NCBI RefSeq assembly: GCF_007747215.1
Contig: NZ_CP036273.1
Coordinates: 5,130,322 to 5,194,321, forward strand
Direction: 5' to 3'
Length of the DNA stretch: 64,000 nucleotides
From: Urbifossiella limnaea
GTDB taxonomy: Bacteria; Planctomycetota; Planctomycetia; Gemmatales; Gemmataceae
The notes beneath the pieces were generated by a model. It searched no databases, was not told the DNA's origin, and saw only the letters and a list, made by a program, of their open reading frames with translations. Positions 27,151 through 38,085 of the stretch are shown here, in pieces. A program made the position numbers and the translations under genes. Position 1 is the stretch's first letter. Each line of letters opens with the position of its first letter.

Positions 27151-27903
27151 TCACGACTTCGGCGCCGGCATCTTGCCCACGACCGGCGTCAGTTCGCGCA
27201 GCCAGATGTTGCGGTACTTCACCGGGTCGCCGTGGTTCTGCAGCCGGATCGGCTGCTTCGGCGGGTGCGGCTCGTAGGCCGGCGCCTGATGGAACCACGT
27301 CGTCCCCGTCAGCTCGTAGTGGTTCTGCACGACCACGCCGTTGTGGATGACGGTCACATGTCCCGGCTTCGTCAGCTTCTTGTCGTCGCCGAACCGCGGG
27401 GCCGTGTAGACGATGTCGTACGTCTGCCACTGGCCCGGCCCGCGGCTGGCGTTCACCATCGGCGGCATCTGCTTGTACAGGGCGGCGCACTGGCCGTCGA
27501 AGTACGTCTTGTTGCCGAACGAGTCGAGGACCTGCACCTCGTACCGGTTCGACAGGAAGACGCCGCTGTTGCCGCGCCCCTGGCCGCTCCCCTTCACCAC
27601 CTCCGGCGTGGCGAACTCGACGTGTAGCTGGTAGTCGCCGAAGGACTCCTTCGTGGTGATGTCGGCGTTGCGGACCACGGCGTAGCCGTCCTTGATCTCC
27701 CACTTGTCGCCGTTGACCCACTTCGACAGGTCCTTGCCGTCGAAGAGCACGACGGCGTCGGCCGGCGGGGCGCCGGGGGCGTCGCCGGGCGCGACCACCT
27801 TCGGCTCCGGCCAGATGATGCCGCTCTCCCAGCCCTGCTGGACGGCGAGAGCAACGCCGCCGGCGGCGAGGATGAGGACGGCGGTACAGAGTTTCCGGGT
27901 CAT
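27151..27903 (-). CDS. Secreted DUF1080 (3-keto-disaccharide hydrolase-like) protein
   Basis: 250 residues. A signal-like N-terminus ([19 protein letters not shown]) is followed by a single DUF1080 domain. [16 protein letters not shown] opens it, and [21 protein letters not shown] and [16 protein letters not shown] are hallmark segments of this concanavalin-like beta-sandwich family. Members act on 3-keto-glycosides in some planctomycetes and Bacteroidetes; others are binding modules. No oxidoreductase partner is adjacent, although a Gfo/Idh/MocA gene occurs at 45380. The domain fills the protein, so a catalytic or sugar-binding role in the periplasm is likely. Confidence 0.9.
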
Positions 27904-27957: not shown

Positions 27958-29994
27958 TCAGTCCGCCCGCGCCGCTGCCACCACCCGCTTCCCGGCCGCG
28001 AGGCGGATGCCGATGTTGAGCACCATCACGACCGCCAGCAGCACGACCGCCCCACCCCAGGCCTGGTCGCGCCAGTCGGCGTAGGGGCTGCGCGAGTAGT
28101 TGAAGATGTTCCCCGGCAGGAACGCCGTCTGCGACGCCGGCCGCGCGTGCAGGAACGGGAAGGTGCCGTCCACCGTGACCGGCCACTGGTCGCTGCCGCC
28201 GGCGGTCAGCAACAGCGGCGCCGTCTCGCCGGCGATGCGGCCGACGGCCAGGAACACGCCCGTCACGATCGCCGGCAGCGCCGCCGGGAGGATGACCCGC
28301 AGCGTCGTCTGCATCCGCGACGCGCCCAGGGCGTAGCTCGCCTGCCGGATGTTCTCCGGCACCAGCTTCATCGACTCTTCCGCACTCCGGACGATGATCG
28401 GGATCATCATCACCGCCAGCGCGAACGCCCCGGCCCAGGCGTTGAACCCGAACGGGCTCGGGTACCAGAACGGGTACACCAGCACCGCGTACGCGAAGAT
28501 GCCGATCACGATCGACGGCACGCCGCCGAGCAACTCGGTGACGAAGCGTACGGCGGCGGCCACCCGGCTGCGTCGCGCCTCGGCGAGGTACACGGCGGCC
28601 ATCAGCGCGAACGGCACCGCCAGCAGCGTGGCGATGGTGACGATCATGAGGCTGCCGACCATGGCGTTGCCGAGGCCGCCGCGGCGGACGTTCCGGCCCG
28701 TCTCGGTCTTCGGGTACTCGGCCCGGTTGTCCTGCCACGCCTGGTACTGCTCGTACTGCGTGTCGGTGAGCGGGGCGCGGGTCCACTCGGTGAACAGCGT
28801 GGCGTCCACGGCCGACGCCCCGCGGACGGTGATGTACCCGAGGATGAGGAACAGCGGCACGATGGTGGCGACCAGCCCCGCGGCCAGCACGCCGGTCATG
28901 ACCTTGTCCCACAGCCCGGCGCGAGAGACCGGAGGCGTGGTACGGGGGACTGGAGACAAGACCGAATCGGCACTCCCGCTCGGCTCAGTGCTCGTCGCAT
29001 CCGACGTGGAGCTGGCAGCTGTCGGGTTCGGGTTCCCTGTCTCCTGCCTCCTGTCTCCCGTCTCATGCCTCCTGACCCGCGGCCCGCCCACCAGCTGCCG
29101 CAGCAGGAGGCGGGCCGTCACGTTGAACGCCGCCGTCACCGCGAACAGCACCAGCCCCAGCGCCACGAGGGCGGAGCGGAAGTCGGGCGTGTCGGCCTCG
29201 TTCAGCTGGTTGGCGATGCGGCTGGCGATCGAATCGCCGAGCGCGAACGGGGAGGCGTCGATGACCGCCTGGTTGCCGATCAGCATGGTCACGGCCATCG
29301 TCTCGCCGAGCGCCCGGCCGAGCGCCAGGAACGACGCCGCGATGATGCCGGGCCGGGCGTAGGGGAGCACCACGTTCCAGATCGTCTGCCAGCGCGTGGC
29401 CCCGAGCGCGAGACTCCCCTCGCGCTGGCTACGCGGAACCGCCTGGCACACGTCGTAGCCGATCGCCGTGATGTACGGCAGGACCATGATGGCCAGGATG
29501 AGCCCGGCCGCGACGACGCCGTTGCCGCCGGTGTTCGGGCCGCCGACGGCGTCGAACGCCTTCTGGATCAGCGGCGCGAGGAAGAACAAGCCCCAGAAGC
29601 CGTACACCACGCTCGGGATCGCGGCGAGCAACTCGATCAGAAAGGCGCCGACCTTCTTGACCCACGGCGGGGCGATCTCCGACATGTACGCCGCGCTCGC
29701 CACGCCCAGCGGCACGGCGATGACCATGGCGAGCACGGAGGTGACGACGGTGCCCCACACGAACGCGAGAACGCCGTATACGGGGCTGCCACCGCCGGCC
29801 GGCTTCGGCACCCACTCGGAGCTGGTGAACAGCCGGTACTCGCCGGCCCGCGAGAGGACCGGCCAGGCGTCGTGCAGCAGGACGGCGACGAGCGACGCGA
29901 CCAGAACCAGGATGCCGACGCCGGCGGCGCGCGTGAGCCCCTGGAAGACGACCTCGGGCAGTGACGACGGGGCCGGGGCGGCGGGCGGGCTCAT
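27958..29994 (-). CDS. PstC-PstA fusion: phosphate ABC transporter permease
   Basis: 678 residues from the ATG at 29994. Residues about 1-305 are a PstC permease, with GAFLIELLAAIPSVVYGFWG and the EAA-type loop GSLALGATRWQTIWNVVLP. Residues about 360-678 are a PstA permease, with FVTELLGGVPSIVIGIFAY and the EAA loop ASYALGASRMQTTLRVILP. The frame is unbroken. Normally these are two genes, pstC and pstA, whose products pair in the membrane to import phosphate with PstS and PstB. Neither pstS nor pstB is in the window. The 54-residue linker (306-359), rich in Thr, Ser, Arg and Pro, is encoded by inverted-repeat DNA. Both halves keep their ATPase-contact loops, so a functional single-chain permease is likely. 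Confidence 0.92.
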   Translation of the reverse strand: MSPPAAPAPSSLPEVVFQGLTRAAGVGILVLVASLVAVLLHDAWPVLSRAGEYRLFTSSEWVPKPAGGGSPVYGVLAFVWGTVVTSVLAMVIAVPLGVASAAYMSEIAPPWVKKVGAFLIELLAAIPSVVYGFWGLFFLAPLIQKAFDAVGGPNTGGNGVVAAGLILAIMVLPYITAIGYDVCQAVPRSQREGSLALGATRWQTIWNVVLPYARPGIIAASFLALGRALGETMAVTMLIGNQAVIDASPFALGDSIASRIANQLNEADTPDFRSALVALGLVLFAVTAAFNVTARLLLRQLVGGPRVRRHETGDRRQETGNPNPTAASSTSDATSTEPSGSADSVLSPVPRTTPPVSRAGLWDKVMTGVLAAGLVATIVPLFLILGYITVRGASAVDATLFTEWTRAPLTDTQYEQYQAWQDNRAEYPKTETGRNVRRGGLGNAMVGSLMIVTIATLLAVPFALMAAVYLAEARRSRVAAAVRFVTELLGGVPSIVIGIFAYAVLVYPFWYPSPFGFNAWAGAFALAVMMIPIIVRSAEESMKLVPENIRQASYALGASRMQTTLRVILPAALPAIVTGVFLAVGRIAGETAPLLLTAGGSDQWPVTVDGTFPFLHARPASQTAFLPGNIFNYSRSPYADWRDQAWGGAVVLLAVVMVLNIGIRLAAGKRVVAAARAD
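28923..29076. repeat. GAGACAGG-type imperfect inverted repeat inside the PstC-PstA linker
   Basis: On the plus strand, 29032-29076 is a run of CTCCTGTCTC-like units, and 28923-28966 carries degenerate complementary units (GGAGGC, GGGGGACTGGAGAC). Together they form an imperfect stem that coincides with the interdomain linker. The frame is kept through it. Confidence 0.65.
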
Positions 29995-30008
29995 ACGGTG
30001 ATAGCTAC

Positions 30009-30101
30009 GGTGAACGGGTGACGGGGTGAAGGGGTGACGGGGTGACGGCTGACCGAACTTCATCACCCCTTCACCCGCTCACCCCCTCACCCCGTCATCG
30101 G
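30009..30101. repeat. GGGGTGA(C/A) octamer inverted repeat
   Basis: 30009-30048 contains about five degenerate GGGGTGAC/GGGGTGAA units; 30061-30101 contains the complementary TCACCCC units. The element fills the gap between the pseudo-HtrA stop (30102) and the PstC-PstA start (29994). As RNA it would fold into a long stem with a loop of about 12 bases. Confidence 0.85.
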
Positions 30102-32171
30102 TTACAGCCGGTCGATCGCATCCAACCAGGCCAGGAACTCGGCGAACGTCGGCCCGTCCAGGTACTCCTTGCCGGCGTCCTTCATCAGCCGGTAGCTGAT
30201 GGGGAAGCGCTTCTCGTCCAGCTGCGCCTTGCCGGCCTCGATCTCTTTCAGTTCCGGGTCGCGGCCGCCGGCGGCCACGAAGAAGCTCAGCGGCTGGGTC
30301 GCCACGTTGTCCCGCGGCGGGTTGCCGAGCGTGGCGCCGACGGGGGCCACGCCGCGGAACACGTCGCGTGCCTGGAAACCGAGGTAGTACGCCATCTGGC
30401 CGCCGCGGCCGAGGCCGTGCGCCACCACGCGCGCCTTGTCGATCGCGTACTCGCTCATCACGCGGTTCACGTCCGCCAGCACCGTCTCGCTCTCGCTCGG
30501 CGTCCACCCCTCGGCCGCCTCCGCCTTCGGCCCCAGGAGGATGGTCCGCGAGCTCTCGCAGAACGGGCGGAAGCTCTTGATCATGGTCTCGGCGTCGCGC
30601 GGGCCACCGGCCCCGGCAGGGTGGAGCCACACGAGCAGGCCGTGCGGCACCGCGGGGTCGTAGTTGTCCGGCACGTACACCCAGTGCTTCCGGCCGGTCA
30701 CCGCGTCGGTCCGCTCCAGCAGCCCGGTGTCGGCCTTCTTCGCGTCCTTCTTCTTCGGGGCGAACGGGTCGTCCTGGAACGCGGCGACGAAGGCCTCGTT
30801 CGCGCGGGCCGCCGGCGCGGCCCCGACCAGTGGCACCTTCTCGGGGATGAAGTCCGGGACCGGCGTGAGCTTGGCCTTCAGCGTCACCGTCTTGCTCCCC
30901 TCCTTACGGATCACGTCGATGCCGACCTCGGTGCCGGGGGCCATCTGGCTGAGGAAGGTGGCGAGGCTGGCGCGGTCCTTGACCGGCACCTGCGCCTTGT
31001 CGCGGGAGGCGAACAGGATGCGGTCGCCGGCCTTCATGCCGGCGGCGGCCGCGGCGCTGTTCGGGTACACGTAGCGAACGCCGACGCCGGCCACGGTGGC
31101 GCTGCGGATCGGCAGGATACCGAGGAAGGCGTTCACGTACGCGGGCGAGCTGCCGAGCAGCGTCGCGGGCGGCAACTCGATCTCCTTGTCGCCGCGCTTC
31201 ACGGTCAGCTTGACGGCGTCGCCCTCGTACTTCGGCCCGAGCAGGTGCTGGAGGGCCGAGAAGTGCGGCACCGGCCGCCCGTCGGCCTTCACGATGGTGT
31301 CGCCGACCTGGAGCCCGGCGCGGGCCGCGGCCGAGTCCGGCTGCACCGCCGCGACCACCGGCGGCTCGGCGTAGGTGCCGGTCTTCGGGTCGGGGTTAAA
31401 CCCGAGGAGCCCGCGGCGGAGTTCCTTCTTCTCCTTCAGCGCCGGCAGCTTCGCGAGCACGTCCTCGAACGGGATGACGAAGCCGATGCCGGAGTCGTAC
31501 CACTCGAACCCGGCCGTCTCGCCCTCGCCCTGCGGCGACGCCGGCACGATGACGCCGAGCACGCGACCGTCGAGCGCCACGAGCGGGCCGCCGTAGTTGG
31601 CCGGCGAAAACTTCGCGTCCGACTGGATGGCCCGGCCGTACAGGCGGTTCTTGGCGCTCACCACGCCGACACTCACCGACGGGGCGCTGGTCGGCGTCGG
31701 GTCGAGGGCGCGGCCGAGGGCGAGGGCAGTCTGGCCGATCTTCACCTCGGCCTTCGGCACCGCCGCGGGCACGGGCAGGCCGGTCGACTTGATCTTGAGC
31801 AGCGTCAGCATCCGGCTGAAGTCGGTGCCGACGACCGTAGCCACCTCGCGCTCCTTGCCGGGCACGGTGACGAAGATGTCGGTGGGCTTGTTGGCGAAGT
31901 TGAACGAACTGGTGACGACGTACCCGTCGGCCCCGACCACGACGCCGGTGGTTGCGCCGGTGCCGCGGCCGATGAAGATGGTCTTACCCTTCGGGTCCTT
32001 CCCGCCGGCGACGGCGTCGAGGCCGCCGGCGGTGTGGATCATCACGACCGACGGGGCGGCGCGGCCGGCGGCGGTGCGGACGGCCTTCTCGGCGGCCTCG
32101 TCGGCGTCCTGCGCCGCGGCGGGCAGCACGACAGCGATCGCGGCGAGCAGGGCGAGGCGGCGGCGGGTCAT
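30102..32171 (-). CDS. HtrA-like pseudoprotease with two PDZ domains and a degenerate alpha/beta-hydrolase domain
   Basis: 689 residues, signal peptide MTRRRLALLAAIAVVLPAAA. Domains: trypsin-like (about 25-255), PDZ (about 270-355), PDZ (about 375-460) and a PHB-depolymerase-like alpha/beta-hydrolase (about 490-689). Aligned by eye to HtrA, all three triad positions are lost. The TNNHV histidine becomes Phe (VVTSSFNFA), the TDLAVLKI aspartate becomes Met (SRMLTLLKI), and GNSGGP becomes ANYGGP with Tyr for Ser. In the hydrolase domain the nucleophile elbow reads AHGLGRGGQ, so G-x-S-x-G has Gly for Ser, and no catalytic His is obvious at the end. It is probably a secreted scaffold or binding protein. 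Confidence 0.85.
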   Translation of the reverse strand: MTRRRLALLAAIAVVLPAAAQDADEAAEKAVRTAAGRAAPSVVMIHTAGGLDAVAGGKDPKGKTIFIGRGTGATTGVVVGADGYVVTSSFNFANKPTDIFVTVPGKEREVATVVGTDFSRMLTLLKIKSTGLPVPAAVPKAEVKIGQTALALGRALDPTPTSAPSVSVGVVSAKNRLYGRAIQSDAKFSPANYGGPLVALDGRVLGVIVPASPQGEGETAGFEWYDSGIGFVIPFEDVLAKLPALKEKKELRRGLLGFNPDPKTGTYAEPPVVAAVQPDSAAARAGLQVGDTIVKADGRPVPHFSALQHLLGPKYEGDAVKLTVKRGDKEIELPPATLLGSSPAYVNAFLGILPIRSATVAGVGVRYVYPNSAAAAAGMKAGDRILFASRDKAQVPVKDRASLATFLSQMAPGTEVGIDVIRKEGSKTVTLKAKLTPVPDFIPEKVPLVGAAPAARANEAFVAAFQDDPFAPKKKDAKKADTGLLERTDAVTGRKHWVYVPDNYDPAVPHGLLVWLHPAGAGGPRDAETMIKSFRPFCESSRTILLGPKAEAAEGWTPSESETVLADVNRVMSEYAIDKARVVAHGLGRGGQMAYYLGFQARDVFRGVAPVGATLGNPPRDNVATQPLSFFVAAGGRDPELKEIEAGKAQLDEKRFPISYRLMKDAGKEYLDGPTFAEFLAWLDAIDRL

Positions 32172-32215
32172 GGGGTGTCCTGCGTTCGTCGGAAACGTCG
32201 CGCCGGGGGGGGTGG

Positions 32216-33340
32216 TCACTTCTTCGGTGGCGCCGCCACCGCCGCCCGCGCCGGCGGCGCCGTCAGCGTCAGCTCCACGGGTTGCAGCGTGCCGCCGCGG
32301 CGCACCTCCAGCCGGATCGTGCTCCCCGGCCGCGTCTTGGTGCGGAGGTAGTCGTCGAACGCGGCGATGCTCGCCACCGGCTCGCCGTCCACGAAGCTCA
32401 CCAGGTCGTCGGGTTGCAGCTTTGCCTTTTCCGCTGGGGACCCCGGCAGCACGGCCTCCACGTACGCCGGCGTCCGCGCCAGCACGTTCGGCACGAACAC
32501 GATGCCGGCCCACCCGCCCTCACCGGCCGTCGGCCGCTCGCGCTTCGTGGGGCGGTACTCGCCCTTCATCCCCTTCGCCACGAACTCCGGCAGGCTGACC
32601 GTCACCGTCGCGTCCTTGTCCTTCTCCTTCACGGTCACGTCGACCTTCGCGCCGACCGGGACGGCGTAGTTCATCCACGTGTTCGTCACGTTGTTCTTCA
32701 GCTCGCGGCCGATCACGCCGAGCAGTTCGCCCTTGCGGTTGACCAGCGCCCCGCCGGCCGAGCCGGGGTTGTTCGTGATGGCGTCGGTGACGTACACGTC
32801 GCCCTTGTACGGGAAGTCGAACGAGCCGAGCTTGCCGCTGAGCTTCGTGTACGCGCCGATGACGCCCTTCTGGGCCGTCAGCGGCTCGTCGCGGAGGGCG
32901 ATCTCGAACTGGTTCGTGAAGCCGACGGCCGTGTCGCCGGGCGCGGCGATGGGGCGCTTGGCCTCGGCCGCGATGTCGTAGAACGCGAGGTCGAGGCCGG
33001 TCGGCTCGCCGGCCTTCTTCCCCTCCACGACCACCCGCAGCAGCGCGGCATCGAGTTCGGGCTCGATCACCATCACCTCCGCCTTGAGGCGGCGGCCGTC
33101 GTACAGGTGGACGACGAGGTTGGGGGTGTCGATGAGGGAGTTGGCCACGGTGAGGATGTGGCCGTCGGGCGAGACGAGCACGCCGGTGCCGAAGTTGTTC
33201 AGCCGGGTGAACCCGCCGGCCCCGAAGATTTTGACGAGCTTGCCGTTCACCGTCTCGGCCACCTGCACGAGCGGCTGCGCCCGCACGGCGGGAGTGATGC
33301 CGACGAGGGCGGCGGCGAAGAGTGCAGTGATTCGCTTCAC
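32216..33340 (-). CDS. HtrA-like pseudoprotease with one PDZ domain
   Basis: 374 residues; GTG at 33340 is the only reasonable start and lacks a clear ribosome site. A signal peptide (ITALFAAALVGITPAVRAQ) is followed by a trypsin-like domain (about 25-240) and a C-terminal PDZ domain (about 270-355: VLPGSPAEKAKLQPDDLVSF). Against HtrA, the catalytic histidine position is replaced (HILTVANSLID), the aspartate is kept (EPELDAALLRV), and the serine loop reads NNPGSAGGALV with Ala for Ser. Proteolysis is therefore unlikely. It lies 44 bases before the double pseudoenzyme gene and is separated from the intact HtrA gene by a GGGGTGA repeat. Confidence 0.82.
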   Translation of the reverse strand: MKRITALFAAALVGITPAVRAQPLVQVAETVNGKLVKIFGAGGFTRLNNFGTGVLVSPDGHILTVANSLIDTPNLVVHLYDGRRLKAEVMVIEPELDAALLRVVVEGKKAGEPTGLDLAFYDIAAEAKRPIAAPGDTAVGFTNQFEIALRDEPLTAQKGVIGAYTKLSGKLGSFDFPYKGDVYVTDAITNNPGSAGGALVNRKGELLGVIGRELKNNVTNTWMNYAVPVGAKVDVTVKEKDKDATVTVSLPEFVAKGMKGEYRPTKRERPTAGEGGWAGIVFVPNVLARTPAYVEAVLPGSPAEKAKLQPDDLVSFVDGEPVASIAAFDDYLRTKTRPGSTIRLEVRRGGTLQPVELTLTAPPARAAVAAPPKK

Positions 33341-33373
33341 TGTTCGGGTCCAGTTCAGGTGGTCGAATCGCGC

Positions 33374-33453
33374 GGAGGGGTGAGGGGGTGAAGGGGTGAG
33401 AAAGTACCCCACGCTTGTCACCCCTTCACCCCTTCTCCCCCTCACCCCTTCAC
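33374..33453. repeat. GGGGTGA octamer inverted repeat
   Basis: 33374-33400 carries three to four GGGGTGAG/GGGGTGAA units, and 33418-33453 the complementary TCACCCC units. A 24-base stretch pairs with one mismatch. It is the same type as 30009-30101. The right arm overlaps the stop codon of the intact HtrA gene (33450-33452). Confidence 0.85.
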
Positions 33454-35297
33454 TGCAATGCCCACCGCGTGACCGTGAGCACGGCGTACCGCTTGTCCGC
33501 GAAGCGGCACTCGACGCGGTGCGGCAACTGCCGGCCGGCCCCGGCGTCGCGGTAGTCGGAGAGGTACACCTCGCAGGGGTCGGCGTCCTTCGACAGGTAC
33601 GCCTCAAAGCCCATCAGCCTGGCGTCGGCCCGGCTGTGGTACCACTTGCACGTCACCGGGCCGTGCCGGGTCCGCATCACGTCCGCGTCCACGCGCAGCG
33701 CCGCGAGGCTCTTCGGCGTCGCGCCGTCGGCCGGCGGCGGGTAGAACGGCTCGCCGCCGCCGTGGAGGAACTCGCCCTCGAAGCCCTTCGGCCCGGCCGT
33801 CAGGAAGCGGCGGTAGTGGTAGAGCGCCATCATCAACCCGCCGCTGCCGATCGGCTCGGCCTGCTCGCGCAGGTCGGTCTGCTTCAGCGGTTGCAGCTTG
33901 TGCTCGATGTTCAGCTTCAGCGTCACCCGGGCGTCGTCGCCGCCGCCGGGGGCGATTTCGAGCCGCATGTCGCCCTTCCGCTGGTCGGCCTCGTAGGTGC
34001 CGTCCGCGACCCAACTCCCCTGCGCGGCGGCGAAGTCCCCGTGCTTCTTCGCGGCGGCCAGGAGCTTGTCGCGGGCCAGGTCGTTGAAGTAGGCGTTCGC
34101 CAGCCCCTTCCCGCCCGGCTTGTACAACTTGGACGCCGGCGTTTCGACCTTCGGGGCCGGCCCGCCGACGGGCATCGGCCGCGGCTGCTTCGGGTCGGCG
34201 GGCCGCTCCGACTTCTCGGCGGGCGTCGCGGTCTGGAGCCGCACGAGAATCTCGCGGCTCTCGTTCTCCCGGCGGTAGGTGATGGGCACGCGCCAGCCGG
34301 CGGGGAAGGTACCGAGAATGTTCTTGTAGTGGTTCGTGCTCGACATGTTCCGGCCGGCGAAGTTCGTCAACTGGTCGCCGGCGCGGAGGCCGCGGCGGTA
34401 GGCGTCGGCGTCGTCGAGAATCTGGCGGACCACCATGCGGGCCAGGTCGGCGTCCTCGTTCTCCGTCAGTACCAGCGCGCCGAGCGTGGCGTGGTCGGTG
34501 GCGATGCCGGCGTACAGGTGAACGAGGAAGTTCTTGATCTGGTTGATGGAGATGGCGTACCCCACGCCGACGTTCACCCGGCCGCGCTTCTCCAGCGAGA
34601 TGCGGCCGTTGATGCCGATGAGCTGGCCGCGCATGTTGAACAGCGGCCCGCCCGAGTTGCCGGGGTTGATCGGCACGTCCACCTGGATGCAGTCGGTGTA
34701 CTCCTGCCCGCCCGGCCGGCTGCCGAGCGGCTCGTACCGGTTCGTGCCGCTGACGATGCCGAACGTGACCGTCGGCGTGAAGTCGAGCGCGACCGAGAAC
34801 GGGTTGCCGGCCGCGAAGGCATACTCCCCGAGCCGCACCTCGTCGCTGTTGCCAAGTTGTACGAACGGGAACGGCTTGCCCGGCTCCTTCGGCAGCAGCT
34901 TGATGAGCGCCACGTCGCCGAGGAAGTCGTAGCCGACGAGCACGGCGTCGTAGAAGACGCCGTCGGCGAGCCCGCACCGCATGACGCCCGGGGCCATGCC
35001 CGGGGCGGAAATCACGTGGTGGTTGGTGAGGGCGTAGCCCTCGGGGTCGATGATGACGCCCGAGCCGCACCCCTTCCCGTTCAGCATGTTCACGGCGACG
35101 ACCGCCGGCGACACCTTCTCGATGACGGCGATGCGGTCCTGCTCGGAGGTCTGCACAAGGGGGGCGAGCGCGATCGGCGCGGCCGGCGGCTGCGCGGCGA
35201 CGGGCGCGGGTACGGCGACGGCGGCGGCGAGGAGCCCGGCCGGCAGGGCGGCGACGGCGAGAGCCCGGAGGATGCGGACGAGGTGGCGTCGCGTCAT
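33450..35297 (-). CDS. Secreted HtrA/DegP-type serine protease with PDZ and unknown C-terminal domain
   Basis: 615 residues, long hydrophobic signal (LVRILRALAVAALPAGLLAAAVAV). The trypsin-like domain (about 45-260) keeps the full triad: His in YALTNHHVIS, Asp in FLGDVALIKLL and Ser in INPGNSGGPLFN. A PDZ domain follows (about 275-365, YRRGLRAGDQLTNFAGRNM), then a Pro/Lys linker and a C-terminal domain of about 220 residues that I do not recognise. This is the only apparently active protease of the three HtrA relatives at 30102-35297. Likely role: periplasmic or surface protein quality control, perhaps with the pseudoprotease neighbours as partners or regulators (inference). Confidence 0.88.
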   Translation of the reverse strand: MTRRHLVRILRALAVAALPAGLLAAAVAVPAPVAAQPPAAPIALAPLVQTSEQDRIAVIEKVSPAVVAVNMLNGKGCGSGVIIDPEGYALTNHHVISAPGMAPGVMRCGLADGVFYDAVLVGYDFLGDVALIKLLPKEPGKPFPFVQLGNSDEVRLGEYAFAAGNPFSVALDFTPTVTFGIVSGTNRYEPLGSRPGGQEYTDCIQVDVPINPGNSGGPLFNMRGQLIGINGRISLEKRGRVNVGVGYAISINQIKNFLVHLYAGIATDHATLGALVLTENEDADLARMVVRQILDDADAYRRGLRAGDQLTNFAGRNMSSTNHYKNILGTFPAGWRVPITYRRENESREILVRLQTATPAEKSERPADPKQPRPMPVGGPAPKVETPASKLYKPGGKGLANAYFNDLARDKLLAAAKKHGDFAAAQGSWVADGTYEADQRKGDMRLEIAPGGGDDARVTLKLNIEHKLQPLKQTDLREQAEPIGSGGLMMALYHYRRFLTAGPKGFEGEFLHGGGEPFYPPPADGATPKSLAALRVDADVMRTRHGPVTCKWYHSRADARLMGFEAYLSKDADPCEVYLSDYRDAGAGRQLPHRVECRFADKRYAVLTVTRWALQ

Positions 35298-35455: not shown

Positions 35456-36709
35456 TTACTTCTGCACTTTCGCGTCGGCGAGGATCAGGTACGCGGCCGT
35501 CTCCGAGGGGTAGTCGCGGTCCACGGCGATTCGGAGCTGGCGGACGCCCTTCACGTCCACGCTCAGCGCGCGGGCCTTGTCTTTCCCCTTGAACGCGTCC
35601 GTGGCGATCACCTTGCCGTCGGCCTCGATCGTCAGCTTCAGCTCGGCCGCGTTGCCGTGGCGGGCGTCGGCGAAGCCCACCGTCGCGCGGAACTCGCGGT
35701 ACTCGCCGCCGAGCGGGAAGGTCAGCGCCGAGTCGGCCGACACGGCCAGCCCCTTCGGCACCGGCGCCCCGTCCAGGGTGAGCGTCGGGCTGTCGCCGAG
35801 GAAGCGGTCGCGCAGGAAGGCCCCGGGCCGCGTCTTTCCTTCGAGCAGCGGGAACGCCTTGGCGTCGGCGTCCGCCACACCCGCCGCTTCCACTTGCGGC
35901 GTCAGGTCGCTCAGGTAGGCCACGTTCCCCTGGGCGTAGTCCAGCTGCGCCACCGCCGCCGCGGCCGGGTAGGCGACCGACACGCCGCTCACGGTCTTCA
36001 CCTTCACGCCGCCACCACTCACGCCGATCTCCCGGGCCACGAGCGAGTTGCCGAACACGTCCTTGAGCTTGCACAGCGTCGCCGGCGGCCGCCCGTCGGA
36101 CGGCTGGTTGAACACCAGCCCGCCGGTCGCGCGCGACAGCCGCAACTGCTCCTTCGCCCCGCCCTCCTTCTCGAACGTAAGTTCGGTGCCGTCGGCGTTC
36201 CCTTCGTGGATCGTGCCCTGCACGAAGTTCAGCCCCTCGGCCGTCCGCATGACGTAGAGGTCGCGCTTGCCGCGGGTGCGGAGCATGGCCTGCCAGTTGT
36301 CGCGGTGCTTGGCGTCGTCGGCGTTGCGGCAGACGGAGAAGACGCTCGACAGCGGCAGTTCTAACGCCGGCGCCGTCACGCCAGCCGGCCCCGCCAGGAG
36401 CTCGACGTCGAGGCTCTTCCCCTTCACCGCGAACTTGCCGACCCGCAGCACGGAGCCGTCGGTGAGCTCGACCTCGTGGTACTTCTGGTCCTTGACGGGG
36501 ACACCGATCTTGTTCCCCAAGTCGATGAGGAGCACGTCCTTGGCAGGCACCTTTACCTCGGTGCCGCCGGCGTTGAACGTCACGCCTTCGGCATCGACGG
36601 CGACGAGCTTCCCTGTCAGCTTCTTACCGCCGACGAGGGTAATGTCGTCGGCGCGGGCCGCGACCACGACGGCAAGCAGGGCGACCGCAACGAGGGGGCG
36701 GGTGAACAT
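35456..36709 (-). CDS. Secreted NPCBM-domain protein
   Basis: 417 residues, ATG 36709 with AGGAG seven bases upstream. The signal peptide ends near VVVAARA. The N-terminal part (about 20-100) has repeated short beta units (DITLVGGKKLTGKLVAVD, LTDGSVLRVGKF) typical of planctomycete surface proteins. The C-terminal 130 residues match an NPCBM/NEW2 carbohydrate-binding module (TFPLGGEYREFRATVGF, AELKLTIEADGKVI, VRQLRIAVDR). It may bind a glycan at the cell surface. It precedes the HtrA genes on the same strand, with 158 bases between, so co-transcription is uncertain. Confidence 0.82.
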   Translation of the reverse strand: MFTRPLVAVALLAVVVAARADDITLVGGKKLTGKLVAVDAEGVTFNAGGTEVKVPAKDVLLIDLGNKIGVPVKDQKYHEVELTDGSVLRVGKFAVKGKSLDVELLAGPAGVTAPALELPLSSVFSVCRNADDAKHRDNWQAMLRTRGKRDLYVMRTAEGLNFVQGTIHEGNADGTELTFEKEGGAKEQLRLSRATGGLVFNQPSDGRPPATLCKLKDVFGNSLVAREIGVSGGGVKVKTVSGVSVAYPAAAAVAQLDYAQGNVAYLSDLTPQVEAAGVADADAKAFPLLEGKTRPGAFLRDRFLGDSPTLTLDGAPVPKGLAVSADSALTFPLGGEYREFRATVGFADARHGNAAELKLTIEADGKVIATDAFKGKDKARALSVDVKGVRQLRIAVDRDYPSETAAYLILADAKVQK

Positions 36710-36794: not shown

Positions 36795-37880
36795 TTACTG
36801 CCGCGGGGCGAACCCGTGCAGCCGGTTGAGCGAGCGGAAGTACTCGTCGATCATCGGCTTGTACCGGGCCGGGAGGTCGCGGGTGAGCTCCTGCACCAGC
36901 GCGTCGCGGCGGTCCGGCGGCAAGGTGCCCCACTGCTCGGCGGCCTCACGCAACTTGCGGTCGTCCACCTTGCCCGCGCCCGCCCCGCCCATGATCCCGC
37001 TGTCCGGGGCCGGCTGGGTCGGGTTGGTCGAGCCGCCGGCCAGCTTGTCGCCGGGCTTGCCGCCGTTGGGGCAGTTCCCGCCGTTGCACTGGCCGCCCTT
37101 GCTCTTGCTCTCGGCCTCCTTGATCAACTCGTCCAGGCGGAACACGATCCGCTTCTGGATGTCCTGAGTCTTGTCGCCGGGGCGGGACAGGTCGAGGCGG
37201 CGGCCGCTGTTGTCCATCAGCCGGCTGATGTTGGTGAAGTCCTTCGGGTCCGGGTTCCAGGCGATCATGTCGGCGATCATCATCAGGCCGACGCGGTTGT
37301 ACCGGTCCGGGCTGTCGGTCACGTCGTCGCGGAGCCGCACGATGCTGGCCAGCGCGGCGTCGCGCTTCATGGTGGCGTGCTCGGCCACGGCCTTGAAGAA
37401 GAAGAACCCGGCCGGGTCCACGACCTGCTCGGGCGTGACGCCGGCGAGGGCGTCGAGCGCCTCCTCGTAGGCCCGCTTGTTGGCGTTGGCCCGCGCGAAC
37501 ACCAGCGCCAGGTTGGCACGGGCGAACGGGTCCAACTTCGAGTCCTTCAACAGGGCCGGCACGGTCGAGGCGGCCTCGGCGCGGCGGCTGTCGGCGATGA
37601 CGGCTTCGGCTTCGGGGCTGCCGATGGCGACCGTCTCGGCGACCTTGTCGAGGAGCGTCAGGTCCTTCTTGTCCCACACGGCCTGGACGCGGGCGGCGTC
37701 GTGGCGGCCGGCGGCCTTCAGGACGGCCTCGGCCTTCGCACGGGCCACGTCGGCGGCCATCGGGCGAAGGGAGCTGAAGCCGTAACCCGGGCGGGGGATG
37801 GTATTTTCGGCGGCGGTGGCGGGTGCTGCGAACAGGCCGGTGGCGAGGGCCGCGGCTGCGAGACACGAGCGGGGCGTCAC
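36795..37880 (-). CDS. Secreted helical protein of unknown function
   Basis: 361 residues. The GTG at 37880 is chosen over the GTG six codons upstream because GAGGAGG ends five bases before it and the signal peptide (AAAALATGLFAAPATAAE) begins there. The mature protein is mostly helical, alanine- and charge-rich (AKAEAVLKAAGRHDAARVQ), with a possible repeat-like middle. A short Gly/Asn/Cys patch (GGQCNGGNCPNGGKPG, near residue 275) is followed by a C-terminal helical segment ending RLHGFAPRQ. I recognise no family. The 205-bp upstream region is the most AT-rich stretch nearby and probably carries its promoter. Confidence 0.65.
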   Translation of the reverse strand: MTPRSCLAAAALATGLFAAPATAAENTIPRPGYGFSSLRPMAADVARAKAEAVLKAAGRHDAARVQAVWDKKDLTLLDKVAETVAIGSPEAEAVIADSRRAEAASTVPALLKDSKLDPFARANLALVFARANANKRAYEEALDALAGVTPEQVVDPAGFFFFKAVAEHATMKRDAALASIVRLRDDVTDSPDRYNRVGLMMIADMIAWNPDPKDFTNISRLMDNSGRRLDLSRPGDKTQDIQKRIVFRLDELIKEAESKSKGGQCNGGNCPNGGKPGDKLAGGSTNPTQPAPDSGIMGGAGAGKVDDRKLREAAEQWGTLPPDRRDALVQELTRDLPARYKPMIDEYFRSLNRLHGFAPRQ

Positions 37881-38085
37881 ATCATCCTCCTCGGTCACGA
37901 AAGGGCGGGAGGTCCGGAAAGCGCGGTCGGGCGGGGGGAAGAGCGGGCCGCCTAATCGCCTACCTTAACTTCGGCACAGACGAAAAACAATTCTTATCCG
38001 AAACTTCTCAGGAATTCCCCATCACCGCTCCGGGCCGTCACGGCTTAGAGGGCTGACGAGCAATACCGAAGCGAATAACAGGCCA

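Follow-up and report, generated by a model that had tools for sequence, protein, structure and literature searches.

A widespread planctomycete gene trio encoding one intact and two catalytically dead HtrA-type proteins, probable subunits of a single protease complex

Three adjacent genes on the minus strand of Urbifossiella limnaea (assembly GCF_007747215.1), here named A (33450-35297), B (32216-33340) and C (30102-32171), constitute a real, old and widespread three-gene unit that encodes one live and two dead HtrA domains. They lie in a stretch of 64,000 nucleotides (contig NZ_CP036273.1, positions 5,130,322 to 5,194,321), to which we refer as the window and whose own numbering is used for the genes described. 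We consider it likely that the three products work together, and probable, with less assurance, that they form one secreted hetero-oligomer, most likely an HtrA trimer with one active site in which the dead subunits control A.

Results

Catalytic residues of the three proteins

The original prediction had the coordinates and frames of the three genes right, and its reading of the catalytic residues, with A intact, B keeping only the Asp and C keeping none, was borne out by the alignment of orthologues. Gene A encodes an HtrA-type protease of 615 amino acids with an intact triad, according to Pfam, the orthologue alignment and a structure match; the triad codons span 34653-35018 (His94, 35016-35018; Asp128, 34914-34916; Ser215, 34653-34655). 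In B, a predicted dead relative of 374 amino acids with a GTG start, the codons of the former triad (32756-33142) specify Asn67 for His, the retained Asp97 and Ala195 for Ser. In C, the second dead relative with 689 amino acids, the former triad (Phe90 or Asn91, Met121, Tyr193) lies within 31593-31904 together with the residues of the activation cluster described below. A search for triad residues placed elsewhere, run by sequence alignment, left these assignments standing.

The triad is intact in all 74 orthologues of A, that of the window included. The His is missing from all 73 orthologues of B and the Ser from 72 of the 73 rows with letters at that position, and no B is complete; the B of locus L127 keeps the Ser and has Thr in place of His. 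The catalytic Ser of C is replaced by Tyr in 79/79 orthologues, all of which also carry an aromatic residue in column 90. In C, the position of the His column is ambiguous by a single residue (Phe90 or Asn91), neither candidate being His in the window; a joint alignment with DegP shifts it one residue on, where His is found in 2 of 76 rows, and leaves the Tyr unaffected. Other combinations were seen in L185, where the B domain has the His and Gln in place of Ser, and in a C-like unit of L214, which has His and Asp and Leu in place of Ser. The alignments comprised 76 rows for C (A1), 71 for A (A2) and 72 for B (A3), after omission of long, split, fused or partial rows (L123, L124 and L129 for C; L103, L155 and L163 for A; L099 and L100 for B).

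The ratios of non-synonymous to synonymous substitution rates (dN/dS) between the window and the congener L197 were 0.35 for A, 0.24 for B and 0.34 for C, and against L091 they were 0.37, 0.31 and 0.52, respectively. B and C are under purifying selection, all ratios being well below 1, with C looser in the comparison with L091. The triad losses are more than chance, given that orthologues throughout the sampled phylum show these replacements and that B and C are under purifying selection.

Domain architecture and family assignment

Trypsin_2 scored above the Pfam cut-off in A, B and C, and PDZ did so in one stretch of B and two of C, while the PDZ match of A stayed below it (PDZ_2, 22.1 of 27 bits). 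For A, the PDZ domain was recognized through the predicted structure (mean predicted local distance difference test score, pLDDT, 89.5), in which residues 53-357 align with the protease and PDZ domains of solved HtrAs; the best match in a search of solved structures had Z 31.3 over 281 residues at a root-mean-square deviation (rmsd) of 3.9. For the model of C (pLDDT 90.8), the aligned structures include those of DegQ and Deg1, and the best match had Z 27.4 over 365 residues at an rmsd of 7.3. HtrA entries filled the matches listed for both models. Single-chain predictions covered A and C, and B was placed in the family by its sequence. All three proteins thus have the trypsin-like then PDZ architecture of the HtrA/Deg (Do) family, as had been predicted, although none reached the cut-off of the NCBIfam Do-family model TIGR02037 (416.2 bits; A 216.6, B 82.6, C 159.2). 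A hydrophobic stretch, as would suit the predicted signal peptides, was recognized by eye in the sequence at the N-terminus of each.

The protease domain of A lies at about 34515-35135 and its PDZ domain at about 34218-34502, and these are followed by a C-terminal domain that gave no Pfam match. B has a protease-like domain at 32636-33250 and a PDZ domain at about 32246-32503. In C, the protease-like domain (31437-32063) is followed by two PDZ domains (about 31167-31409 and 30864-31124) and by a C-terminal alpha/beta-hydrolase-like domain (about 30105-30734), which the original prediction did not mention. The latter weakly resembles the PHA depolymerase family (43.6 bits against a cut-off of 150, NCBIfam NF050058). 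The Ser aligned with the nucleophile was present in one of the 63 orthologues having this domain and Gly in 42 of them, the alignment of the elbow motif being uncertain outside the order and in class-level rows. With its triad lost and the nucleophile Ser of the hydrolase-like domain nearly absent, C seems to carry two dead enzyme domains. By their sequences, B and C are HtrA-derived pseudoproteases rather than proteases.

Distribution in the phylum

Among the 61 genomes of the window's family, A was found in 58 (E <= 1e-60) and B in 57 (E <= 1e-20), and C was found in 97 of the 102 genomes of the order (E <= 1e-40). In a sample of 246 genomes from across the phylum, matches to the A profile were found in 41, to the C profile in the identical 41 and to the B profile in 40 of those; in the remaining genome (G292), C sits at a contig end. 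These counts depend on thresholds of at least 430 bits for A, 336 for C and 246 for B, which were set at visible gaps once the lists had been seen (the next genome below scored 373, 273 and 166 bits, respectively), and on searches that scored 4 to 8 candidates per genome, so that misses are possible. No genome that keeps B and C and has lost A was found among the 246. In 248 genomes of the class, compared by eye at chosen thresholds, B and C occurred together in 188, B only in 7, C only in 1 and neither in 52. A scan of GTDB contigs with a C pattern returned records named Gemmataceae or other planctomycetes; its 25 loci comprised 24 C orthologues with full or near-full matches and one general HtrA of Spirillospora, which makes it a weak test outside Planctomycetota. 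An absence of the trio from relatives, which would have spoken against the original prediction, was not seen in the genome search. The trio is not an oddity of the Gemmataceae and is spread through the sampled phylum.

Profile matches below the gap that delimits this core set led to more tandem arrays of three HtrA-like domains, of which one is intact and two are dead, with other triad replacements and gene orders. In 110 of 141 loci (106 genomes, 36 families), the protease units numbered exactly three and exactly one of them had an intact triad. The tally comprised the window and L091-L230 (127 genomes, 44 families), with L001-L090 outside it; since these loci were picked for high profile scores or tandem matches, the proportion is a statement on arrays and not a rate for the phylum. 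Among the 31 loci outside the pattern, eight are single genes of scattered sets (L095, L096, L147, L153, L191-L194) and fifteen lie at contig ends or on short contigs (L099, L100, L141, L159, L170, L176, L195, L196, L199, L200, L202, L204, L215, L218, L219). In L166 the match of the active domain is split in two, in L208 and L209 a fourth intact gene lies about 4.7 kb from a three-unit array, L220 gave weak split matches, L226 and L230 are lone units, L229 is a two-unit frame of a different kind, and L228 is a dead-dead fusion with no live gene within the 7.6 kb examined.

The distant arrays L171-L181 and L201-L225 show differing triad replacements, for example Thr-Glu-Asp and Phe-Asp-Val, hinting at several routes of decay, and C-like units with Phe-Asp-Ser in L173, L180, L201 and L212 are possible intermediates. 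A tree built from 140 domains places the live members of the distant arrays with A. Separately, there is a second pair at G000:C1:826705-828053 (L007, L018); its first member is a trypsin-like domain that is intact (VGGDSGG), and the relative that comes after it has Ser in place of His. A similar pair occupies a single frame in G268 (L229).

Scattered genes and natural fusions

The three genes are also retained where they are unlinked. One contig of G206 carries A at 4.06 Mb, B at 3.73 Mb and C at 6.61 Mb, with A intact and B and C dead; in G188 they are likewise scattered yet retained, and in G051 C is more than 2 Mb from A and B either way round the single contig. Fusions were found as well. 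A and B are joined in a single frame without stops in L155, L163 and L185 (3 genomes of three families), and two dead domains per frame occur in 15 loci, L220 and L227 of these on weak matches. In L225 (2295-4904), an intact and two dead domains form one frame of 870 residues with a single PDZ domain at the end, in which Pfam independently counts three Trypsin_2 stretches. The near-perfect co-occurrence, the retention of scattered genes and the live-dead fusions give good support to the view that B and C are partners dedicated to the active protein.

Residues of the activation cluster

In DegS, Arg178 of loop L3 is reported to reach the LD loop of the neighbouring subunit during activation, in a cluster with Thr167 and Gln191 (PMC11642142). 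The DegP equivalents are Arg187 and Gln200, with the numbering transferred from the position of the Ser. In the alignment with DegP, both equivalents were kept in all 76 rows of C and all 71 of A; in B, the Arg was kept in 11 of 72 rows and the Gln in none. The C codons in the window are those of Arg176 (31644-31646) and Gln183 (31623-31625). C would thus have lost its cutting function while retaining the residues that turn on a neighbour.

Neighbouring genes and other features of the window

Gaps of 109 bases separate A from B and 44 bases B from C. The order A-B-C on one strand was found in 70 of 81 loci (the window and L091-L170), and many of the remainder stop at a contig end. Two further genes, E and N, are common neighbours on the upstream side, in the same order, at other loci; the full order E-N-A-B-C occurs in 47 of the 81. 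N (35456-36709, minus strand) encodes a protein with a C-terminal NPCBM domain according to Pfam. E (36795-37898, minus strand) has no Pfam match in the window, and a Pfam scan of 45 of its orthologues gave scattered TPR matches, each in at most 4 of them.

Two other genes of the window were rejected as members of the unit. A relative of the fused PstC-PstA permease gene (27958-30066) was found in one of the 80 other loci and a relative of the 3-keto-disaccharide hydrolase gene (27151-27903) in two. The former, on the minus strand, joins the phosphate permeases PstC and PstA in one frame of 702 amino acids, both above their NCBIfam cut-offs. Similar short tandem repeats of 8-mers, GGGTGACG and TCACCCCT, occur on opposite strands at 30009-30053 and 33418-33453, within or next to the intervals that follow C and A, respectively.

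Discussion

The retention by C of the activating Arg and Gln without a triad suggests a division of labour, in which A would cut, C would sense and activate, and B would support. A, B and C would be subunits of one secreted protease complex with A as its sole protease, and B and C would be HtrA paralogues that lost catalysis early in these lineages and were kept as non-catalytic subunits. Each protein would most likely occupy one position of an HtrA-type trimer, which would then have a single active site in place of three. C, and perhaps the PDZ domains of B and C both, would respond to a ligand and turn on A through the contact between subunits, and B would be a structural or substrate-binding subunit. 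The original prediction had proposed that the dead copies are regulators, decoys or scaffolds for the active one. The partnership is well supported, and a regulator or allosteric subunit fits better than a decoy because the Arg and Gln of C are kept in every aligned row.

Of the individual readings, we favour a mixed trimer that has one active site, but only tentatively. Its evolutionary form, in which we place a similarly cautious degree of belief, is that an ancestral homotrimeric HtrA may have become an obligate asymmetric heterotrimer early in Planctomycetota, with one catalytic and two dedicated dead subunits, C keeping the neighbour-switching L3 arginine, some lineages then fusing two of the places and one all three.

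Several observations weigh against this reading. The loss in C of the GNPF motif of A and DegP may weaken an HtrA-like interface. Three paralogues are no proof of a trimer, and stacked homotrimers would leave the same genome pattern. What is shown here concerns genes and single chains, namely the triads and their conservation, the co-occurrence, the retention of unlinked genes, the fusions and the Arg and Gln of C; for the complex, we infer association, stoichiometry, trimer geometry, direction of control, secretion and substrate. The distribution has gaps, too. When one genome was taken from each of 18 families without the core trio in the phylum sample, and regions were examined only where listed matches adjoined, a full array was found in 4; and among the 20 genomes of the class sample listed without a match, 15 belong to family f89, all of them lacking core B. 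In the domain tree, which was midpoint-rooted and whose root is unsafe, distant dead units stand beside core B (support 0.887) or core C (0.456), a moderate to weak placement. In addition, a physical interaction was not detected by the authors who studied MamE and MamO, the comparable pair of magnetotactic bacteria (PMC4794232).

A different assembly, which is unlikely in our estimate, would stack homotrimers of A, of B and of C in a mixed cage, the dead trimers serving as chaperone or substrate-holding layers. DegP-type HtrA proteases form 12-mers and 24-mers, as the titles of the matched structures indicate, C has two PDZ domains as DegP does, and the number of units is constant at three. 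The single chain of L225, with one active and two dead domains, suits a mixed trimer better, while leaving room for a cage.

Inhibitors are known to have arisen from dead paralogues, and the invariant Tyr at the Ser site of C could have a fixed role in the pocket. Until released by a signal, A might be kept inactive by B and C or have to compete with them for its substrates. We judge this quite improbable: C keeps residues that help to activate a neighbour in DegS and DegP (PMC11642142), and the dead MamO is reported to be needed for cleavage and not opposed to it (PMC4794232).

It is still harder to see B and C as independent scaffolds that bind ligands, metals or the cell wall alone and merely share an operon, and we regard this as very unlikely. 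The extra domain of C and the NPCBM domain of N would suit such roles, as would the metal-binding role that MamO is reported to have beside activation and its lack of detected contact with MamE (PMC4794232); co-retention of unlinked genes and fusions with an active domain are not what it would lead one to expect. The one-residue uncertainty in the His column of C is all that could be cited for misplaced triads or decaying pseudogenes, an explanation refuted by the invariant replacement of Ser by Tyr, the open frames and the purifying selection.

Among known systems, DegP, DegQ, DegS and other HtrA (Do) proteins have solved structures that match the models of A and C, and A shares with them the triad and the Arg and Gln. 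They are known as homotrimers or multiples thereof with an active site in every subunit. A, B and C all fall below the Do-family cut-off. MamE and MamO, like the trio, combine an active HtrA-type protease and a degenerate paralogue in one gene cluster, the dead protein is reported to be required for cleavage by the live one, and triad loss in one of a duplicated pair is described as having arisen three separate times (PMC4794232). Unlike the trio, they are two proteins of magnetosome islands, and MamO includes a transporter domain as well as a metal site (PMC4794232). All three proteins scored far below the cut-offs of the curated models of MamE and MamO (800 bits each), the best scores being 97 and 44 bits, both for A, and they are not members of those families; the pair is the nearest working analogue of the trio. 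Plant Deg7 combines an active with a degenerate HtrA protease domain, in a single chain, and its degenerate domain is reported to serve trimerisation (PMC3473262); it is one protein with two protease domains, whereas the trio usually consists of three genes and fusions are exceptional. MamE/MamO and Deg7 are the closest precedents, and neither is a three-member set.

A survey published in 2019 reported many HtrA and PDZ genes in planctomycetes, and the words 'inactive' and 'catalytic triad' do not occur in it (PMC6411480). The trio may explain part of this gene expansion. We found no description of it in titles and the beginnings of abstracts, a search that lay outside subscription papers and preprints.

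HtrA trimers are known as homo-oligomers whose subunits all act as sensor and as cutter, and it is for this reason hard to tell whose PDZ domain or L3 loop governs a given active site. In a naturally occurring set with one cutting and two non-cutting subunits, these roles would be separate, and activation between subunits would become directly testable.

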